Positions 5,667 through 14,946 of a stretch of 64,000 nt of DNA are shown here, one piece after another; position 1 is the stretch's first letter; each line of letters opens with the position of its first letter. The translations under genes were made by a program, and so were the position numbers. The DNA lies in assembly GCA_024710405.1 (NCBI GenBank), contig JANJUV010000019.1, positions 124,001-188,000 of the forward strand, in the 5' to 3' direction. Source of the stretch: Bacteroidales bacterium. Lineage in GTDB: Bacteria > Bacteroidota > Bacteroidia > Bacteroidales > F082. The notes under the pieces are model-generated. The model was not told the DNA's origin. It searched no databases and was given only the letters and a program-made list of their open reading frames with translations.

Positions 5667-7235
5667 CTATTGTTTTACAGGTGGATAGTCAATAGAGAAA
5701 TGTAGTCCGATACTTTCTTTTCTTTGAGATGCAAATTTGATGATCAGGTAGGCCACTGATATCATATTGCGCAACTCACATATTTCTGTTGAAACAACCG
5801 AGCGTTCATAAAGTTCTTCTGTTTCGCGATGAATGATCGCAAGTCGGTCCAAAGCCCTTTTCAGGCGAAGATTAGACCTGACAATTCCTACATAGTTGCT
5901 CATGATTGACTGAAGTTCTTTGCGCGATTGTGTAATCAGCACCATTTCTTCATTCAGTACAGTGCCTTCGGCATTCCAGTCAGGGATTCCTGATTGAATC
6001 TCGGTGGTTTTATTAAGACGAACTGCATCCAGACTGGCCCGGTGGGAGAATACCACTGATTCGAGTAATGAATTGGAAGCAAGCCGGTTGGCACCATGCA
6101 AGCCTGTAGCAGCGACTTCGCCTGATGCGTATAGGTTATGGATACTTGTGCGACCCCATTCATCTGTTCTGATGCCGCCGCATATGTAGTGTGCAGCAGG
6201 AACAACAGGAATCATCTCTTTCAAAATATTGATTCCCAGTCCAAGACATTTTGCATATATACTTGGAAAATGGTGCATGATTTCGCGTTCCGGAATTGAA
6301 CGGGCATCAAGATAAACATGGTCGGCTCCCGAAAGTTTCATTTCACTGTCGATTGCTCTGGCAACAACATCACGTGGTGCCAGCGATCCCCGTTTGTCAT
6401 AACGTTCCATGAATTCTTTGCCTTTGATATCTTTCAAAATGGCACCTGCTCCTCTGAGTGCTTCCGTAATCAGGAATGAAGGTTTTTCGTGTGGATTGTA
6501 CAGGCTGGTTGGGTGGAACTGAATGAATTCCATGCTATCGACAATGCCTTTAGCACGATAGAACATTGCGATGCCATCACCAGTCGAGATAGTGGGATTA
6601 GTAGTTGTTTGATACACATTTCCTGCTCCTCCGGTGGCAATCAGGGTTGTTCTGGCCAGCACGGTGTCGATTTCACCTGTCTCAGGATTCAATACATAAG
6701 CGCCAAAGCACTGAATGTCTGTGTTGGTCCGTCTGACAATTCTTCCAAGATGGTGCTGTGTGATGATGTCGATTGTGAAATGGTTTTCGAGTATCTCAAT
6801 GTTGGGATGCGATGTCACTTTCTCGGCCAGAGCCCTCTGGATCTCAGCACCTGTTTTGTCCTGATGGTGAAGCACCCTGAATTCTGAGTGACCACCTTCC
6901 CTTGCCAGGGCGTAGCGTCCGGATTCCTCCACGTCAAAATGGGTGCCCCACTCAATAAGTTCTTTTACCCTTTCGGTTGATTCAGTTATGGTTAGTCTGA
7001 CAATCTTCTCGTCATTAAGAAAATTGCCTGCTGCAAGGGTGTCTTTTATATGCTTCTCATACGTGTCAGGATTATACATCACTGCGGCAATCCCACCCTG
7101 AGCGTACCAGGTGGATGTTTCGTTTATGGATGTTTTGCTGACTATGAGTACTTTGCCAAACTCCGCAACCTTAATGGCGTAACTTAATCCGGCAATGCCT
7201 GATCCGATGATCAGGAAATCTACTTGTCTCCTCAT
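5667..7235 (-). CDS. nadB: L-aspartate oxidase
   Basis: This 522-residue flavoprotein oxidises L-aspartate to iminoaspartate, the first step of de novo NAD synthesis. The FAD-binding dinucleotide fold starts at residue 8 with LIIGSGIAGLSYA, and the flavin-proximal motif STWYAQGGIAAV is at about 41-52. The substrate region has QFHPTSLYNP and HYICGGIRTDEWGRTSI, and the helical C-terminal domain has the NadB-specific ending. Length matches the family (about 520-540). nadA and nadC are not in this window. It sits 21 bases after sucB. In anaerobes NadB uses fumarate rather than oxygen as acceptor, which would tie it to the neighbouring citric acid cycle genes, but that is inference. Confidence 0.95.
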   Translation of the reverse strand: MRRQVDFLIIGSGIAGLSYAIKVAEFGKVLIVSKTSINETSTWYAQGGIAAVMYNPDTYEKHIKDTLAAGNFLNDEKIVRLTITESTERVKELIEWGTHFDVEESGRYALAREGGHSEFRVLHHQDKTGAEIQRALAEKVTSHPNIEILENHFTIDIITQHHLGRIVRRTNTDIQCFGAYVLNPETGEIDTVLARTTLIATGGAGNVYQTTTNPTISTGDGIAMFYRAKGIVDSMEFIQFHPTSLYNPHEKPSFLITEALRGAGAILKDIKGKEFMERYDKRGSLAPRDVVARAIDSEMKLSGADHVYLDARSIPEREIMHHFPSIYAKCLGLGINILKEMIPVVPAAHYICGGIRTDEWGRTSIHNLYASGEVAATGLHGANRLASNSLLESVVFSHRASLDAVRLNKTTEIQSGIPDWNAEGTVLNEEMVLITQSRKELQSIMSNYVGIVRSNLRLKRALDRLAIIHRETEELYERSVVSTEICELRNMISVAYLIIKFASQRKESIGLHFSIDYPPVKQ

Positions 7236-7256
7236 GCGTTACTATTCACTTATCTG

Positions 7257-8546
7257 TCAGATTCCCAGTAGCGTTTCAACAGGATCTTTGGCGTTGAACA
7301 GCATGCTCGACGGATTTTCCAGCATCTCTTTCACTTTAACCAGAAAACCAACCGATTCGCGTCCGTCAATAATTCTGTGGTCATAACTCAATGCAACAAA
7401 CATTACCGGATGGATTTCAACCTTTCCTTTCACTGCTATCGGACGTTCAACAATATTGTGCATGCCAAGAATGGCAGATTGTGGAGGATTAATTATAGGT
7501 GTGGAAAGCATCGAACCAAATACACCTCCGTTAGTGATTGTAAATGTTCCGCCCGTCATTTCTTCAAGACTAAGTTTGTTGTCGCGGGCCTTAACGGCCA
7601 GATCTTTTACAGCGAGTTCAATTTCGGCCAGACTAAGTTTTTCTGCGTTTCTGATAACTGGAACAACAAGGCCCTTTGGCCCAGAAACGGCAATGCTGAT
7701 ATCAGCATAATTAAATGTCACTATTTCGTCGCCGGCTATCTGTGCGTTGACTTGTGGAAACAACATCAGTGCCTCGGTAACAGCCTTGGTGAAAAACGAC
7801 ATGAATCCCAGGCCAACTCCATGAGTTTCTTTGAATTTGTCTTTGTATTTATTCCTAATATCCATTATGGCAGTCATATTCACCTCGTTAAACGTGGTCA
7901 ACATGGCTGTTTCATTCTTGACAGATACGAGTCGCTCAGAGAGTCTTTTACGTAGTGTACTCATTTTTTTTCTGTCTTCCGTACGGACTGTCGCACCTGA
8001 ACTTCCAATTGTCTGCTTGATGTTTAATGGAACAACGGATGTTTTTTGTTGCTGGTAAAAATCAAGGTCTTTTCGGCTGATTCTGTAATGTTTAAAGAAA
8101 TTTATCAGTTCTTCCTCATGGATATTTTCGGCTTCCATCATTTTTCGGGCCAATGGAGATAAGGAAAGGTCAAGGGAGGTTTGCTTTTCTTCTTTTTTGG
8201 GTTTTGATGTATCTTTGGAGGAGGCAGCTGCCGGATCGGGATTGGCTTTTTGATCGGCTTTTGTGGTCTTTGGTTCTGTTTTTTCCACAACAGCTTTGGC
8301 ATTGTCTGTGGAAGAACTTTCAATTGTTGCAATAACCGAACCTACGGCAATTGTTTCGCCGGCTGATACTTTCAGACTGATTGTTCCTGAAGCCTCTGCT
8401 GCAATACTCAGGGTAGCCTTGTCCGAGTCGATTTCAGCAATATCCTGATTTTGATCTACGAATGCACCATCTTCAACAAGCCATCCGGCAAGTTGCACCT
8501 CACTGATGGATTCTCCGGGGCTGGGCACTTTTACTTCTATAAGCAT
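7257..8546 (-). CDS. sucB: 2-oxoglutarate dehydrogenase E2, dihydrolipoyllysine succinyltransferase
   Basis: This is the 429-residue E2 core of the 2-oxoglutarate dehydrogenase complex, which passes succinyl groups from lipoyl-lysine to CoA. An N-terminal lipoyl domain (1-75) carries the target lysine K43 in EIDSDKATL. A Lys/Pro/Ala-rich linker covers about 78-125, and the small E1/E3-binding domain is at about 128-165 (LSPLARKMMEAENI). The catalytic domain runs from about 195 to the end, with the active-site motif SYDHRIIDG (H390, D394). The gene lies 17 bases after sucA and 21 bases before nadB. No lpd (E3) or sucCD is present here. Confidence 0.95.
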   Translation of the reverse strand: MLIEVKVPSPGESISEVQLAGWLVEDGAFVDQNQDIAEIDSDKATLSIAAEASGTISLKVSAGETIAVGSVIATIESSSTDNAKAVVEKTEPKTTKADQKANPDPAAASSKDTSKPKKEEKQTSLDLSLSPLARKMMEAENIHEEELINFFKHYRISRKDLDFYQQQKTSVVPLNIKQTIGSSGATVRTEDRKKMSTLRKRLSERLVSVKNETAMLTTFNEVNMTAIMDIRNKYKDKFKETHGVGLGFMSFFTKAVTEALMLFPQVNAQIAGDEIVTFNYADISIAVSGPKGLVVPVIRNAEKLSLAEIELAVKDLAVKARDNKLSLEEMTGGTFTITNGGVFGSMLSTPIINPPQSAILGMHNIVERPIAVKGKVEIHPVMFVALSYDHRIIDGRESVGFLVKVKEMLENPSSMLFNAKDPVETLLGI

Positions 8547-8563: not shown

Positions 8564-11416
8564 TTATTGTAACTGGTTTTCGGCAGAATGATATCTGCTG
8601 TCGATCTGATCAACTTTGAGTGTTTCGAGTTCTTTTTCGAACGACTTCCATTTGTTGCCAATACAGATCATGCCGCATTCTTTTCCAACATGGGGACAAA
8701 CACAATTTTCGAAAGTTTTGTCCAGGATTTTCTGATGTCTGATCTGATGGAATTTGGGGGAGCCTGTGGCAGGGCTTCCGCTTGCCGGCCGGGCAATCAC
8801 CCTTAGCGGGACTTCCTTGAACTCGTGGTGGATAAACCTCCATGGCCCCATGTTTAAAGGTTCTTCCTGAACCCACATGAAGTGTGTTGTATGTGTGTAT
8901 TTTTCAATCAGTTGAAGCATCTGCTTCTTAGGAAGTGGATACAATTGCTCAATCCTGATCAGGGCTGTGTTGTCATTTCCTAATTTGCTTCGTTCTTCCA
9001 GCAGATCATAGTATATTTTACCTGAACAAAATACAACTTTTGTAATTCGCTCTACATTGGCAGTTGAATCATCAATAACTTCTTTAAAACCACCATTACT
9101 CAGATCCTCAAGAGTGGAAACACATGCTGGATGTCGGAGAAGGCTTTTTGGAGTGAACACAATTAAAGGCTTGCGGAATGGTCTGTGCAATTGTCTGCGA
9201 AGGATATGAAAGAAATTGGCAGGTGTGGTGCAATTAGCTACCTGCATGTTCAGTTCTGCACAAAGGGTAAGAAACCGTTCAATTCTGGCACTGCTATGTT
9301 CGGGGCCCTGGCCTTCATAACCATGTGGCAATAGAACAACCAGATCGTTCATCACGTTCCATTTATCTTCGGCGCTTGAAATAAACTGGTCAAAAACTAT
9401 TTGTGCCCCATTATTGAAATCACCAAACTGGGCCTCCCAGATCGTAAGTGTATGTGGGGAAGAAAGGGCATATCCGTATTCAAAACCCAGTACGCCATAT
9501 TCACTCAGCAATGAATTGTAAACCTCAAACTCAGATTGATCAGTTGTAATATGATTGAGTGGAATATATTCTTGTTCTGAATCTTCAACACGCAGCACGG
9601 CATGACGATGCGAAAACGTGCCCCTAGCAACATCTTGTCCGCTAAGCCTAACCCTTTTGTTTTCTATAAGCAGACTGCCATAAGCCAGCAATTCGGCCAT
9701 GGCCCAGTCGAGTTTGTTATCCTTGAAAACCATATCTCGCCTTTGTTCTTGCAAACGTTGCGTTTTTCTGAAGAAGTTCAAATGAGTAGGCAGATCGGTA
9801 ATTTTGCTTGCAATGGTTTTAAGTGTTTCATTACTGAGACCTGTTTGGGGAGATTGCTCAAAGTCATCCTTGGTTGCTTTTCGTATATCTTCCCAGGTTT
9901 CCTGAAGGAAATTTGTAATGGTTGACTTTTTTTTCTCCCTTGCACCGGTCAGACTTTCTTCAAGCTTGGCATTATTGTGGTTTTCAAGGGCATCTATTTC
10001 CTCCTGCGTAACAATTCCTTCAGAAAGCAGTTTCCGGGCATAAATTTCACGCGGATTGGGATGGCTTTCAATGGCTTTGTAGAGCAAAGGTTGTGTAAAT
10101 CGGGGTTCATCTCCTTCATTATGACCGTATTTACGATAGCAAAGTAAATCGATAAACACATCTTTCTGGAATTTTGTCCTGAATACCATTGCAAGCTGTA
10201 TTGCATACACCACCGCTTCAGGATCGTCGCCATTGACGTGGAAAACAGGCGATTGGGTAACTTTGGCCACATCTGTACAGTAAATACTTGATCGAGCATC
10301 AAGATAGTCGGTAGTGAACCCAATCTGATTATTGATTACCAGATGTATGGTTCCACCTGTTTTATATCCTTTCAGCTCCGACATCTGAAGCACCTCATAT
10401 ACAATACCTTGACCAGCAATCGATGCGTCACCATGAATTAAAATAGGGGCGACCTTAGAAAAATCCTTGTTGTAAATAAGATCAGCCTTTGCTCTGACAA
10501 TTCCTTCAACTACGGGATCTACTGCTTCGAGATGTGATGGATTGGGTGTTAGTGTAAGTTTAACTGTTTTTCCATTGGTGGCTCTTCGGGAAGCAGTGTA
10601 TCCGAGGTGATATTTCACATCACCAAGCAACGTTTCGTCTTCATATTCTTTTCCTTCGAATTCGCTGAAAATATCCGAATAGGGTTTGCGCAGAATGTTG
10701 GCCAATGTGTTGAGACGGCCGCGGTGGGCCATCCCGATCACGAATTCTTCAACCCCGAGTTCCGCCCCTTTTTCCATGATGGCATCCAGCGCCGGAATCA
10801 GAGACTCAGCACCTTCGAGTGAAAAACGTTTCTGGCCTGGGAATTTTTTATGGAGAAATTTTTCAAATCCAACAGCCCTGGTAAGCTTTTTAAGGATATA
10901 CTTCTTGTCTTCTACTGTAAGGGGAGGGGAGTTACGGATCGCCTCCATTTTTTTTTGCAGCCACCTGAGTGTTTCTACATTGCGGATATACATATACTCG
11001 GCTCCGACTGACCTACAATAAGTCTGATGCAACATAGCGATGATGTTACGCAGACTTGTCGTTCCAAGGCCCACTTCTGCACCCGCCTCAAACATTTTAT
11101 CGAGGTCTTTTTCGGTCAATCCATAGTTTTCAATGTCGAGCGAAGGGCTGTATGCGCGTCTTTTCCTTACAGGGTTTGTGCTGGTAAAAAGGTGTCCTCT
11201 TTTTCGGTAATCATCAATGAGATTGAGCACTTTAAATTCAACAGGTGTTATTGTTTCCTGCTGTTTTTTTACCGGGAAATGGGCCGTGGCGAAATCAAAG
11301 CCTTCGAAGAACTTTTTCCATCCTGGATCAACCGAATCAGGATCAGCTTTAAAACGCTGATAAAGGTCTTCAATAACGGCAGGATCGTTCGAGTTCAAGA
11401 AGCTGTATTGGTCCAT
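8564..11416 (-). CDS. sucA: 2-oxoglutarate dehydrogenase E1, with a Cys-rich C-terminal extension
   Basis: This 950-residue thiamine-diphosphate enzyme decarboxylates 2-oxoglutarate in the NAD-linked complex. The N-terminal E1 segment SFLNSNDPAVIEDLYQRF binds the E2 core. The ThDP region has GMAHRGRLN, HGDASIAGQGIVYE and VINNQIGFTT, and the transketolase-like pyrimidine domain lies at about 590-790. The usual E1 ending (a PASGSPATG motif followed by a His-rich helix) is reached near residue 890. It is then followed by about 50 extra residues with Cys at 905, 907, 914 and 918 (C-x-C-x6-C-x3-C), which I do not know from E. coli SucA and which could bind a metal or cluster. It is the first gene of the sucA-sucB-nadB-gamma-CA run; a -7 box lies at 11443-11450. 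Confidence 0.95.
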   Translation of the reverse strand: MDQYSFLNSNDPAVIEDLYQRFKADPDSVDPGWKKFFEGFDFATAHFPVKKQQETITPVEFKVLNLIDDYRKRGHLFTSTNPVRKRRAYSPSLDIENYGLTEKDLDKMFEAGAEVGLGTTSLRNIIAMLHQTYCRSVGAEYMYIRNVETLRWLQKKMEAIRNSPPLTVEDKKYILKKLTRAVGFEKFLHKKFPGQKRFSLEGAESLIPALDAIMEKGAELGVEEFVIGMAHRGRLNTLANILRKPYSDIFSEFEGKEYEDETLLGDVKYHLGYTASRRATNGKTVKLTLTPNPSHLEAVDPVVEGIVRAKADLIYNKDFSKVAPILIHGDASIAGQGIVYEVLQMSELKGYKTGGTIHLVINNQIGFTTDYLDARSSIYCTDVAKVTQSPVFHVNGDDPEAVVYAIQLAMVFRTKFQKDVFIDLLCYRKYGHNEGDEPRFTQPLLYKAIESHPNPREIYARKLLSEGIVTQEEIDALENHNNAKLEESLTGAREKKKSTITNFLQETWEDIRKATKDDFEQSPQTGLSNETLKTIASKITDLPTHLNFFRKTQRLQEQRRDMVFKDNKLDWAMAELLAYGSLLIENKRVRLSGQDVARGTFSHRHAVLRVEDSEQEYIPLNHITTDQSEFEVYNSLLSEYGVLGFEYGYALSSPHTLTIWEAQFGDFNNGAQIVFDQFISSAEDKWNVMNDLVVLLPHGYEGQGPEHSSARIERFLTLCAELNMQVANCTTPANFFHILRRQLHRPFRKPLIVFTPKSLLRHPACVSTLEDLSNGGFKEVIDDSTANVERITKVVFCSGKIYYDLLEERSKLGNDNTALIRIEQLYPLPKKQMLQLIEKYTHTTHFMWVQEEPLNMGPWRFIHHEFKEVPLRVIARPASGSPATGSPKFHQIRHQKILDKTFENCVCPHVGKECGMICIGNKWKSFEKELETLKVDQIDSRYHSAENQLQ

Positions 11417-11561: not shown

Positions 11562-11729
11562 TTATTCGGGGATGATTGCCTCAACCGGGCAGACATCAGC
11601 ACATGAACCACAGTCGGTGCAAACGTCCGGATCGATCACATAGATATCGCCTTCAGCAATAGCATCAACCGGGCACTCATCAATACATGTACCGCAAGCG
11701 GTGCAATCTTCAGTGATTTTGTAAGCCAT
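11562..11729 (-). CDS. 2[4Fe-4S] bacterial-type ferredoxin
   Basis: This is a 55-residue clostridial-type ferredoxin. It has two cluster motifs, CTACGTCIDECP and CTDCGSCADVCP, each with CxxCxxCxxxCP, so eight Cys bind two [4Fe-4S] clusters. The start is ATG at 11729 (MAYKITEDC); the longer open frame upstream adds 24 residues that contain the promoter and do not look like protein. It diverges from korA-korB, whose enzyme reduces ferredoxin, so it is the likely electron acceptor of that enzyme. It has its own promoter (11767-11774) and terminator. Confidence 0.95.
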   Translation of the reverse strand: MAYKITEDCTACGTCIDECPVDAIAEGDIYVIDPDVCTDCGSCADVCPVEAIIPE

Positions 11730-11766
11730 AAAGATAATATTTTGGGGTTGGTAATTAATTTCTGTG

Positions 11767-11774
11767 CAAAGATA
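11767..11774 (-). promoter_or_regulatory. -7 promoter element of the ferredoxin gene
   Basis: The minus strand reads TATCTTTG, a perfect TAnnTTTG box 37 bases before the ferredoxin ATG. A TTG on the same strand lies 24 bases further upstream (11799-11801), slightly beyond the usual spacing. Confidence 0.55.
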
Positions 11775-11803
11775 ACCATATGCAATCAATCTATTCATCA
11801 ATT

Positions 11804-11889
11804 CCCTAATTTATAGATAGTCTAAATTAATATCAGTTGATTCCTGCTGCTTAATTTTATCTTGTATTTAGACTGATTATTAATTAGGG
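11804..11889. repeat. 86-base two-part palindrome in the ferredoxin/korA divergent region
   Basis: The outer arms CCCTAATT (11804-11811) and AATTAGGG (11882-11889) are perfect inverses. So are the inner arms AGTCTAAAT (11819-11827) and ATTTAGACT (11866-11874). Seven non-pairing bases separate outer from inner arm on each side. The centre is AT-rich and unpaired. It may be an operator, a cruciform or the remains of a small inverted-repeat element; no target duplication is visible at its ends. Confidence 0.6.
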
Positions 11890-12030
11890 GTGTGTTTTAT
11901 AGTAATGTCTGTTGAAGCTAAGAAAACAATATTTTGTAAATCAAATAGATGAGCGATACATGATTGTTTTTTTACCTTATCATCGTCTTCTTTTGGATAA
12001 GCCCCAATTAAAGGCAATGACCTAAAAAGC

Positions 12031-12038
12031 TAATTTTG
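12031..12038 (+). promoter_or_regulatory. -7 promoter element of korA
   Basis: TAATTTTG fits TAnnTTTG and lies 22 bases before the korA ATG. I see no good -33 element. Confidence 0.5.
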
Positions 12039-12060
12039 CAGTTTCATTAACCAAAGCACT

Positions 12061-13908
12061 ATGACAACAAAGAAAAGCAAGGTAGTAGGTCTTGAGCAAG
12101 TGGTTGTTAGATTCGCCGGAGACTCGGGCGACGGAATGCAACTTACCGGTAGTCTTTTTTCTGATTCAACGGCCTTTGCGGGGAATGATTTTGCTACTTT
12201 CCCTGATTATCCTGCCGAGATCAGAGCACCGCAGGGAACTGTTGCCGGAGTTTCAGGCTTCCAGATTCACTTCGGGCAGAACACCGTATATACCTCAGGC
12301 GATCTGGCCGACGTGCTGATCGCCATGAACCCGGCTTCGCTCAAAGCCAACATGAAGTGGATCAAAAAGGGTGCTATTATCATCATCGATGCTGACGCAT
12401 TTAACGAAAAGGGATTCGAAAGGGCAGGTTATGCCGCCGACCCACTTTCAGACGGAGCCCTCGACGGGTATAACGTCATCAAAGCTCCGATTACATTGCT
12501 TACAAAAGAAGCAGTTAAGCACCTCGATCTGGACAATAAAACTACCCTGAAAACAAAAAATATGTTTGCCCTGGGCATAATTATGTTTCTGTTTAACAGG
12601 GATTTGAAGCTTATAAATGATTATTTTGAAAGCAAGTTCAAAGCCAACCCACTGGTTGTTGATGCCAATAAAGCCGTGCTTGCAGCAGGTTTTAACTATG
12701 CCGATACGATTGAAGCATTGGGTTCCACCTACAAAGTAGAGCCTGCGCCGCTTGAAAAAGGCCGTTACCGAAATATTACCGGAAATGTGGCCACCGCATG
12801 GGGATTTATTGCCGCAGCCGAACGATCAGGCCGCGAACTTTTTCTTGGTTCTTATCCTATTACCCCTGCAACAGAAATACTGCAGGAACTTTCGAGCCAC
12901 AAGGAATTGAGTGTAAAAGCTTTTCAGGCCGAAGATGAGATTGCCGGAATCGTTTCAGCAATTGGCGCAAGTTATGCCGGATCCCTTGCTATCACTACTA
13001 CAAGTGGTCCGGGTCTATCGCTGAAAAGCGAAGCCATTGGTCTGGCAGTGATGACCGAACTACCGCTTGTTATCGTGGATGTACAGCGTGGCGGACCATC
13101 AACAGGTTTACCCACCAAATCAGAGCAGAGTGACCTGATGCAGGCATTGTATGGACGCAACGGTGAAGCACCTGTAATCATTATTGCTGCCCAAAGTTCA
13201 GTAGATTGTTTCTATGGTGCATTTGATGCTGCCAAACTCAGCCTTGAACACATGACCCCGGCCATTCTGCTCACCGACGGTTCACTGGCTAATGGTTCTG
13301 AAGTCTTCAAAATACCCAGAGTAGCCGACCTGCCCGAGATAAAACCACCGCTTGTTGCCGCTAACGACCCAGATTATAAGCCTTACAGACGTAATCCTGA
13401 AAAACTTAACCGCTATTGGGCAGTTCCGGGAACTGAAGGCCTGCGTCATCGCGTCGGTGGACTCGAAAAGGAGGATGTCTCCGGAAATGTTTCCCACGAT
13501 CCACTCAACCACCAAAAAATGATCATGCTGCGCGAGGAAAAGGTTCAGCGTGTGGCCAATTATATACCTGATCAGGCAATTTTGGGCAACGATACCGGCG
13601 ATCTGCTTATTGTCAGCTGGGGCGGAACTTATGGAGTGATGCGCACCGTTGTTAATAAAATGCAGGAACAAGGTAAGTCAATCAGCCTTGCCCATTTCCG
13701 CTATATCATGCCACTGCCCCGCAATACGGAACAGGTGTTTGCCGGTTTTAAGAGAATTCTGGTCTGCGAAATCAACAATGGTCAGTTTGTCAAGTATCTC
13801 AAGATGAACTTTCCACAGTACCGCTACGAACAGTACAACAAAATTCAGGGTTTGCCTTTTATGATAGCCGAGTTGGAAGACAAGTTCAATTCCATTTTAA
13901 ATCAATAA
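12061..13908 (+). CDS. korA: 2-oxoglutarate:ferredoxin oxidoreductase, fused gamma-alpha subunit
   Basis: This 615-residue subunit works with the beta subunit downstream to convert 2-oxoglutarate and CoA to succinyl-CoA and CO2, reducing ferredoxin. Residues 1-190 are the gamma domain (GDSGDGMQLTGSLFSD near the start). From about 225 the alpha domain follows, with the YPITPATEIL signature near residue 265, TTSGPGLSLKSEAIG, and the C-terminal transketolase-like domain (LIVSWGGTYG). The fused gamma-alpha arrangement is the usual form in Bacteroidota. It is 3 bases upstream of korB. Substrate is inferred from sequence type and two-subunit form; a related 2-oxoacid substrate is possible. Confidence 0.92.
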   Translation: MTTKKSKVVGLEQVVVRFAGDSGDGMQLTGSLFSDSTAFAGNDFATFPDYPAEIRAPQGTVAGVSGFQIHFGQNTVYTSGDLADVLIAMNPASLKANMKWIKKGAIIIIDADAFNEKGFERAGYAADPLSDGALDGYNVIKAPITLLTKEAVKHLDLDNKTTLKTKNMFALGIIMFLFNRDLKLINDYFESKFKANPLVVDANKAVLAAGFNYADTIEALGSTYKVEPAPLEKGRYRNITGNVATAWGFIAAAERSGRELFLGSYPITPATEILQELSSHKELSVKAFQAEDEIAGIVSAIGASYAGSLAITTTSGPGLSLKSEAIGLAVMTELPLVIVDVQRGGPSTGLPTKSEQSDLMQALYGRNGEAPVIIIAAQSSVDCFYGAFDAAKLSLEHMTPAILLTDGSLANGSEVFKIPRVADLPEIKPPLVAANDPDYKPYRRNPEKLNRYWAVPGTEGLRHRVGGLEKEDVSGNVSHDPLNHQKMIMLREEKVQRVANYIPDQAILGNDTGDLLIVSWGGTYGVMRTVVNKMQEQGKSISLAHFRYIMPLPRNTEQVFAGFKRILVCEINNGQFVKYLKMNFPQYRYEQYNKIQGLPFMIAELEDKFNSILNQ

Positions 13909-13911
13909 GTT

Positions 13912-14946
13912 ATGGAGAGTAAATTCATGGAAAATCAGATAATACAGCTTACCAAGGAGGATTTTAGCAGCGACCAAATGGTGAAATGGTGCCCTGGATG
14001 CGGTGATCATGCTATCCTTCACTCCGTCGAAAACGTCTTCCCGAACCTTGGAATTCGAAAAGAGGATTTTGTAGTTGTTTCCGGAATTGGTTGTTCTTCA
14101 CGCTTTCCATATTATATGAACACATATGGGATGCACGGTATCCATGGAAGAGCAGCAGCGCTTGCAACCGGAGTGAAACTGTCGAACCCTTCCCTCAGTG
14201 TCTGGATGATCACCGGTGATGGCGACTGCATGGCTATTGGCGGAAACCATTTCATACACACGGTGCGTCGCAACATTGACATAAACATACTTCTGTTTAA
14301 TAACAAGATATACGGACTCACGAAAGGTCAATACTCACCAACTACACCAAGGGGTTCGAAAACCAAGACAAGCCCTCAGGGAACATTCGAACGTCCTTTC
14401 AATCCCGGAGAACTGGTGATCGGGTCACAGGGCAATTTCTTTGCACGTACACTCGATACCAATCCCAAGCATATGACAGCAGTATTTACAGAGGCTGCCA
14501 GACACAAAGGCACATCAGTGGTGGAAATCCTGCAGAATTGTGTTATTTTCTTCAACAAGGCTCATGAGCTGATAACTTCCAGAGAAACAAAGGATGATAA
14601 TCAATTGATGATCGAACATGGCAAACCCCTGATTTTCGGAAAAGAGAAAAACAAGGGTATTGTATTACGCGGCACTAGTCTTGAAGTAGTTACCATCGGA
14701 GAAAATGGTATTACGGAATCCGATTTGCTGGTACATAATCAATATGATCCTGATCCGGGCATTCATATGATGCTGGCCCGTATGATGCCCCCCGAGTATC
14801 CTGTTGCTCTTGGAATCATTCGTTCGGTTGCTGCAGAGACATTTGAAACCATTATGATGGATTCAATAATCCACGAGAAAGAGCGGTCGAAGATAAAAAC
14901 AGTTGACGATATGCTTAACAGTGGCAATACATGGGTAATAGAATAA
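13912..14946 (+). CDS. korB: 2-oxoglutarate:ferredoxin oxidoreductase, beta subunit
   Basis: This 344-residue subunit carries thiamine diphosphate and a [4Fe-4S] cluster. Cluster Cys are visible in WCPGCGDH (C27, C30), GIGCSSR (C61) and a later QNCVIFF. The ThDP-Mg motif is GDGDCMAIGGNH, followed by NNKIYGLTKGQYSPTT, which is characteristic of KorB-like proteins. The start is ATG 13912, though ATG 13927 (MENQ) is also possible. It is translated 3 bases after korA, so the two are coupled. A strong terminator follows at 14971. Confidence 0.93.
   Translation: MESKFMENQIIQLTKEDFSSDQMVKWCPGCGDHAILHSVENVFPNLGIRKEDFVVVSGIGCSSRFPYYMNTYGMHGIHGRAAALATGVKLSNPSLSVWMITGDGDCMAIGGNHFIHTVRRNIDINILLFNNKIYGLTKGQYSPTTPRGSKTKTSPQGTFERPFNPGELVIGSQGNFFARTLDTNPKHMTAVFTEAARHKGTSVVEILQNCVIFFNKAHELITSRETKDDNQLMIEHGKPLIFGKEKNKGIVLRGTSLEVVTIGENGITESDLLVHNQYDPDPGIHMMLARMMPPEYPVALGIIRSVAAETFETIMMDSIIHEKERSKIKTVDDMLNSGNTWVIE

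Follow-up and report, generated by a model that had tools for sequence, protein, structure and literature searches.

The E1 component of 2-oxoglutarate dehydrogenase (OGDH), SucA or E1o, is a classic, well-studied enzyme. In related heterotetrameric E1s, the C-terminal domain docks the small domain of E2. To our knowledge, no E1o has been reported with a metal site apart from that of thiamin Mg2+. The described Cys-based sites closest to the one reported below belong to other proteins: (i) SecA ends in a metal site, CXCX8C(H/C), that is thought to contain zinc and is required for SecB binding (excerpt of PMC6620043); (ii) the CDGSH pattern, C-x-C-x2-(S/T)-x3-P-x-C-D-G-(S/T/A)-H, holds a [2Fe-2S] cluster through CxC-x8-CxxxH, and its S/T, P, D, G and H are universal according to the excerpted account (PMC3174974); and (iii) the Zn2/Cys6 cluster of HOIL-1 RING2, C-x19-C-x-C-x6-C-x3-C-x2-C, binds zinc (excerpt of PMC9834252).

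We analysed a stretch of 64,000 nucleotides (hereafter the window) from a Bacteroidales bacterium, in which sucA occupies positions 8564..11416 of the (-) strand and encodes a 950-aa E1o, as identified by translation, phmmer, Pfam, NCBIfam and Foldseek. The NCBIfam equivalog NF006914 (2-oxoglutarate dehydrogenase E1) covers residues 3–903 with 1261.5 bits against a cut-off of 764, and TIGR00239 scores 1105.9 bits against a cut-off of 770. The best Foldseek matches of the predicted model are to SucA 6kma, with 6km9 and 2jgd also among the matches, which identifies the body fold as E1o. Directly downstream lies sucB (7257..8546, (-) strand), which encodes the E2 succinyltransferase and has no E3_binding Pfam match. 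The scores over the cut-offs, the E1o fold and the partner sucB thus place this protein among the 2-oxoglutarate dehydrogenase E1 enzymes. The usual E1o body closes with a helix region at residues 887–902 (8711..8758, (-) strand), with an AF2 helix at 887–901; H890 and K900 are conserved there, and F902 is almost so.

Beyond this helix the protein continues. Fifteen E1o-like solved sequences align to SucA only up to residues 899–904 (phmmer), which leaves about 46–50 extra residues, and the Pfam family OxoGdeHyase_C stops at residue 902. The preliminary description, which had placed about 50 residues past the usual SucA end, is borne out by phmmer, Pfam and NCBIfam alike. This C-terminal extension, residues 903–950 (8567..8710, (-) strand), contains four Cys only, arranged as C905-x-C907-x6-C914-x3-C918 in a core of 14 residues (C-V-C-PHVGKE-C-GMI-C) that exactly fills 8663..8704 on the (-) strand and is evident in both the translation and the relatives' alignments. 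The codons lie at 8702–8704 (Cys905), 8696–8698 (Cys907), 8675–8677 (Cys914) and 8663–8665 (Cys918), all on the (-) strand; translation confirms the residues, spacing and position first read for this core.

Searched at E 10, the isolated last 70 residues of SucA have no match among Pfam and NCBIfam families, and a profile built from 60 tails finds no related PDB chain; at this threshold, no protein of the same genome besides SucA carries the tail. A further helix is predicted by AF2 after the core, at residues 923–933 (8618..8650, (-) strand), and is present in the own and near families, not order-wide. Among 130 distinct motif-bearing tails, 31 end 3–20 residues past the last Cys and five end 3–5 residues past it, so that the conserved unit consists of the last body helix and the 14-residue Cys core. 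The charged helix that had been noted after the Cys is therefore supported by AF2 in this protein and lies outside the conserved unit.

The four Cys are widely kept among the Bacteroidales. A first search of the own genome and 40 relatives found a SucA match in 27 of 41, and the motif CxCx6CxxxC is present in 25 of the 26 complete SucA 3' ends, one (L025) being without it. Across the order, exact spacing is found in 52 of 59 SucA 3' ends, mostly one per family. Of the remaining seven, one (L169) reads CxxC-x6-C-x3-C, and six (L149, L156–L159 and L185) are without the set. The former belongs to family f154, in which CxxC replaces CxC in all three genomes (L169 and two sisters) while all four Cys are kept. 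The six others hold 0, 0, 0, 0, 1 and 2 Cys, which indicates that the four-Cys set was lost as a whole. No Cys-to-His exchange occurs among the 59 order-wide ends. A fifth Cys was seen within the core in three order members (L133, L136 and L184; CxCx3Cx2CxxxC).

The larger order sample comprises 393 genomes, 165 of which have a SucA match. The 60-tail profile matches 157 of the 393, including 154 of these 165; the 11 others comprise three truncated genes (G501, G578 and G730) and eight genuinely tail-less genomes (G039, G489, G590, G681, G747, G719, G512 and G644). The tail-less members fall in families f16, f75, f127 and f150, with a single genome in f13. Three genomes of the order that lack a SucA match also give marginal matches to the tail profile (E 8.6e-4 to 0.0092). 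In a scan of named genomes, the best 80 of 259 relatives, a set selected on tail similarity, all carry the motif (80/80); seven of these 80 are labelled Chlorobiota, and the others Bacteroidales, Bacteroidetes or a group within. The alignment of relatives called for in the preliminary description thus finds the Cys conserved (25/26 and 52/59 with exact spacing; 154/165 genomes). Judged from these sequences, the four Cys are not there by chance. The tail is real and is kept in most SucA of the order, and a literature search restricted to open-licence papers found no account of SucA with a Cys tail.

Outside the order the picture changes. The phylum sample holds 395 genomes, 323 of them with a SucA-profile match, and the only strong tail-profile match is that of the own genome. 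Eight other phylum genomes give short, marginal matches (E 2e-4 to 0.0064); in a six-frame scan, exact Cys spacing was seen in three of these eight loci. The Cys set is absent from all 19 same-class SucA ends read. The tail is thus not common to all SucA and, within the order, phylum and same-class samples and the named-genome scan, appears to be a feature of the order.

Several observations bear on selection and history. In sets gathered by a pattern that requires four Cys, (i) the Cys codons are mixed, with TGC/TGT counts of 69/61, 70/60, 69/61 and 52/78 for the four positions in 130 distinct tails; (ii) the other ten core positions have a mean pairwise identity of 28% in 47 order-level cores; and (iii) the only invariant positions in an alignment of 60 tails (A4) are H890, K900 and the four Cys, with F902 in at least 90%; the selection-free figures are the 25/26, 52/59 and 154/165 given above. 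Mixed synonymous codons together with low identity elsewhere in the core point to purifying selection on the four Cys.

For a tree, 57 SucA proteins were trimmed at the SPxxG region, ahead of the tails; it was built by a quick method with a midpoint root and five outgroup rows, without the tail-less G512 and G644. A branch with support 94 separates the 52 order members from the outgroup. The tail-less families f127 and f16 group together (support 92) inside a fork with tail-bearing families (support 96), and the tail-less L204 (f13) stands beside the tail-bearing L207 (support 90). The tail label requires four changes on this tree, one of which is an artefact: L007 is tail-less by a contig break only, and L028, the other contig end of the same gene, has the tail. 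With that change discounted, one gain and two losses would account for the rest, and from these sequences the tail seems to date from the ancestor of the order and to have been lost later in some members.

Next to sucA, the window contains a gene for a 55-aa ferredoxin upstream (11562..11729, (-) strand; two CxxCxxCxxxCP motifs by reading) and the divergent korA and korB, encoding 2-oxoacid:acceptor oxidoreductase subunits (12061..14946, (+) strand). Among the best 80 of 259 relatives, a SucB match lies downstream of sucA in 79 loci, within 400 bp in 75; of the 69 tail-bearing loci whose upstream DNA extends for 500 bp or more, 49 have a ferredoxin within 700 bp upstream and the other 20 gave none there; and of the 61 whose upstream DNA reaches 2 kb or more, 46 have a divergent korA. 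The arrangement of korB-korA divergent from ferredoxin-sucA-sucB (11562–14946 with 5667–8546 in the window) is common in this set, often with nadB after it (53/80), and makes neighbours of the NAD-linked and the ferredoxin-linked oxidation of 2-oxoacids.

It had been suggested that this ferredoxin/KOR neighbourhood gives the tail a redox link. This is not supported, because the tail occurs without the arrangement: besides the 20 of 69 loci above, tblastn with the window's ferredoxin finds none at nine of ten tail-bearing order representatives (L205–L214). All 30 genomes examined match a KOR-type alpha subunit (TIGR03710), 29 of them over the cut-off, and six of these 30 are tail-less; COX1 exceeds its cut-off in 17 of the 24 tail-bearing and in four of the six tail-less genomes. 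With only six tail-less genomes among the 30 this is a weak test, and it reveals no association of the tail with COX1 or KOR presence. The E3 component (TIGR01350) is over the cut-off once, elsewhere in the own genome.

The E2 was considered as well. Of six E2s from the order, including two of tail-less genomes, none reaches the E3_binding Pfam cut-off (best E 4.3e-4), and the usual GTGxxGRI loop of E2 looks shortened in the order stretches inspected. By eye, E2 has a short form of this peripheral-domain loop whether or not the member bears the tail, so a link of the tail to E2 was rejected, and no E1–E2 co-variation was found in the E2 stretches compared. In brief, none of SucB, ferredoxin, KOR, COX1 and E3 explains the tail.

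The AF2 model of full-length SucA, made with 62 alignment rows, has a mean pLDDT of 81.4, and the ten-residue blocks from 901 to 950 have values of 85, 78, 81, 82 and 78. At the end of the protein it comprises a helix (887–901), a turn (908–911), bridge residues (913–914) and the helix 923–933; no strand of at least three residues is predicted in the tail. The C-terminal 75-aa fragment alone reaches a mean pLDDT of 54.8, and this poor fold suggests that the tail may need the body or a metal.

What, then, might the tail do? Four Cys within 14 residues, their fixed spacing, the f154 variant that keeps all four, as expected of a chelating set, and loss of the whole set together argue for one metal held by four thiolates. 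On this conservation pattern the tail very probably binds metal, and the initial proposal of a metal or iron–sulphur site is well supported. Zinc would be modestly favoured over an iron–sulphur cluster by the spacing of HOIL-1 (excerpt of PMC9834252) and by the CxC site at the SecA C-terminus (excerpt of PMC6620043), and by analogy we put its claim to be the bound metal at about even or slightly better. Since the tail emerges from the C-terminal domain, where E2 docks in related E1s, we infer a structural or docking role, most likely the stabilization of the dimer or of an E1 contact. In the reading that we prefer, with somewhat better than even confidence, the tail would be a small metal-binding C-terminal cap. 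The four thiolates of CxC and CxxxC would surround one metal ion, most probably one structural Zn2+, and so pin the chain after the last body helix (887–902); the compact knob thus formed on the E1o C-terminal domain would stabilize the E1o dimer or a contact inside the OGDH complex. In the full-length model the ten-residue blocks of the tail reach pLDDT values of 78–85, which counts for this cap, while the low pLDDT of the isolated 75-residue fragment (55) and the lack of a PDB relative at E 10 count against it. Zinc sites often tolerate Cys-to-His exchange, and its absence among the 59 ends counts against zinc.

That same absence of His favours the leading alternative, in which the four Cys would hold an iron–sulphur cluster ([2Fe-2S] or [4Fe-4S]) with a structural or an oxygen- or iron-sensing role. 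The succession of CxC and CxxxC also resembles the CxC-x8-CxxxH of CDGSH proteins, which binds [2Fe-2S] (excerpt of PMC3174974), and hhalign of the tail against the CDGSH protein of the own genome brings the first three Cys into register. However, that match has a probability of only 0.5% (E 0.12), the S/T, P, D, G and H described as universal in the excerpted CDGSH account are missing, f154 changes CxC to CxxC, and the tail does not track haem-copper oxidases, as the COX1 counts reveal. We regard such a cluster as possible but unlikely.

A sensor function is improbable. Here an oxygen- or iron-labile Fe-S or zinc-thiolate site in the cap would throttle the NAD-linked OGDH upon a change in oxygen or iron, while a ferredoxin-linked KOR-type enzyme, for which every one of the 30 genomes has a match, took over the step. 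The tail might instead be a metal-free thiol/disulfide switch that tunes OGDH to the redox state, an idea suggested by the sequence-close Cys pairs (CxC and CxxxC) on an enzyme at an NADH-producing step; it is very doubtful, since the order-wide fixed spacing and joint loss are better explained by a site with four ligands than by a single switch pair, and neither the ferredoxin neighbourhood nor KOR was found linked to the tail. A non-functional inherited extension, with which the free variation of the rest of the tail and its absence from some families would agree, is scarcely credible when all four Cys are conserved across the order while their synonymous codons vary.

If true, the order-wide four-Cys cap would add to the TCA cycle of Bacteroidales a structural or regulatory element that is new, and it would sit on the enzyme of a node at which these bacteria appear to have both NAD-linked and ferredoxin-linked 2-oxoglutarate oxidation.

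Compared with known systems, residues 3–903 of this SucA are like other E1o in equivalog match and fold, while the solved sequences and family models end at 899–904 and the tail is extra. With the SEC-C site of SecA the tail shares a very short, CxC-based, C-terminal location on a large enzyme, but SecA has x8 and C(H/C) (excerpt of PMC6620043) where SucA has x6 and CxxxC; given this spacing, and because the last 70 residues match no Pfam family at E 10, we do not assign the tail to the SecA metal-binding domain. With CDGSH/NEET proteins it shares CxC, the third Cys and a fourth ligand four residues further on, but differs in having x6 rather than x8, Cys rather than His as the fourth ligand and none of the S/T, P, D and G of the excerpted pattern (PMC3174974), and in being predicted without strands of at least three residues. 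CDGSH homology was rejected on the spacing, the fourth ligand and the non-significant hhalign match. A zf-CDGSH scan of the own genome finds one protein, other than SucA; it has 144 aa (L190:1222-1656) and, by reading, is encoded between genes for an acyl-CoA dehydrogenase and a CoA-transferase pair. HOIL-1 RING2 includes the exact C-x-C-x6-C-x3-C spacing of the tail, but it has two additional Cys and a two-zinc cluster in a eukaryotic ubiquitin-ligase domain (excerpt of PMC9834252), and the relation is one of spacing only; with four Cys in residues 903–950, the tail is not of the Zn2/Cys6 type. With its conserved putative ligand Cys at fixed spacing, varied once in f154, the tail is in keeping with a general four-thiolate metal site.
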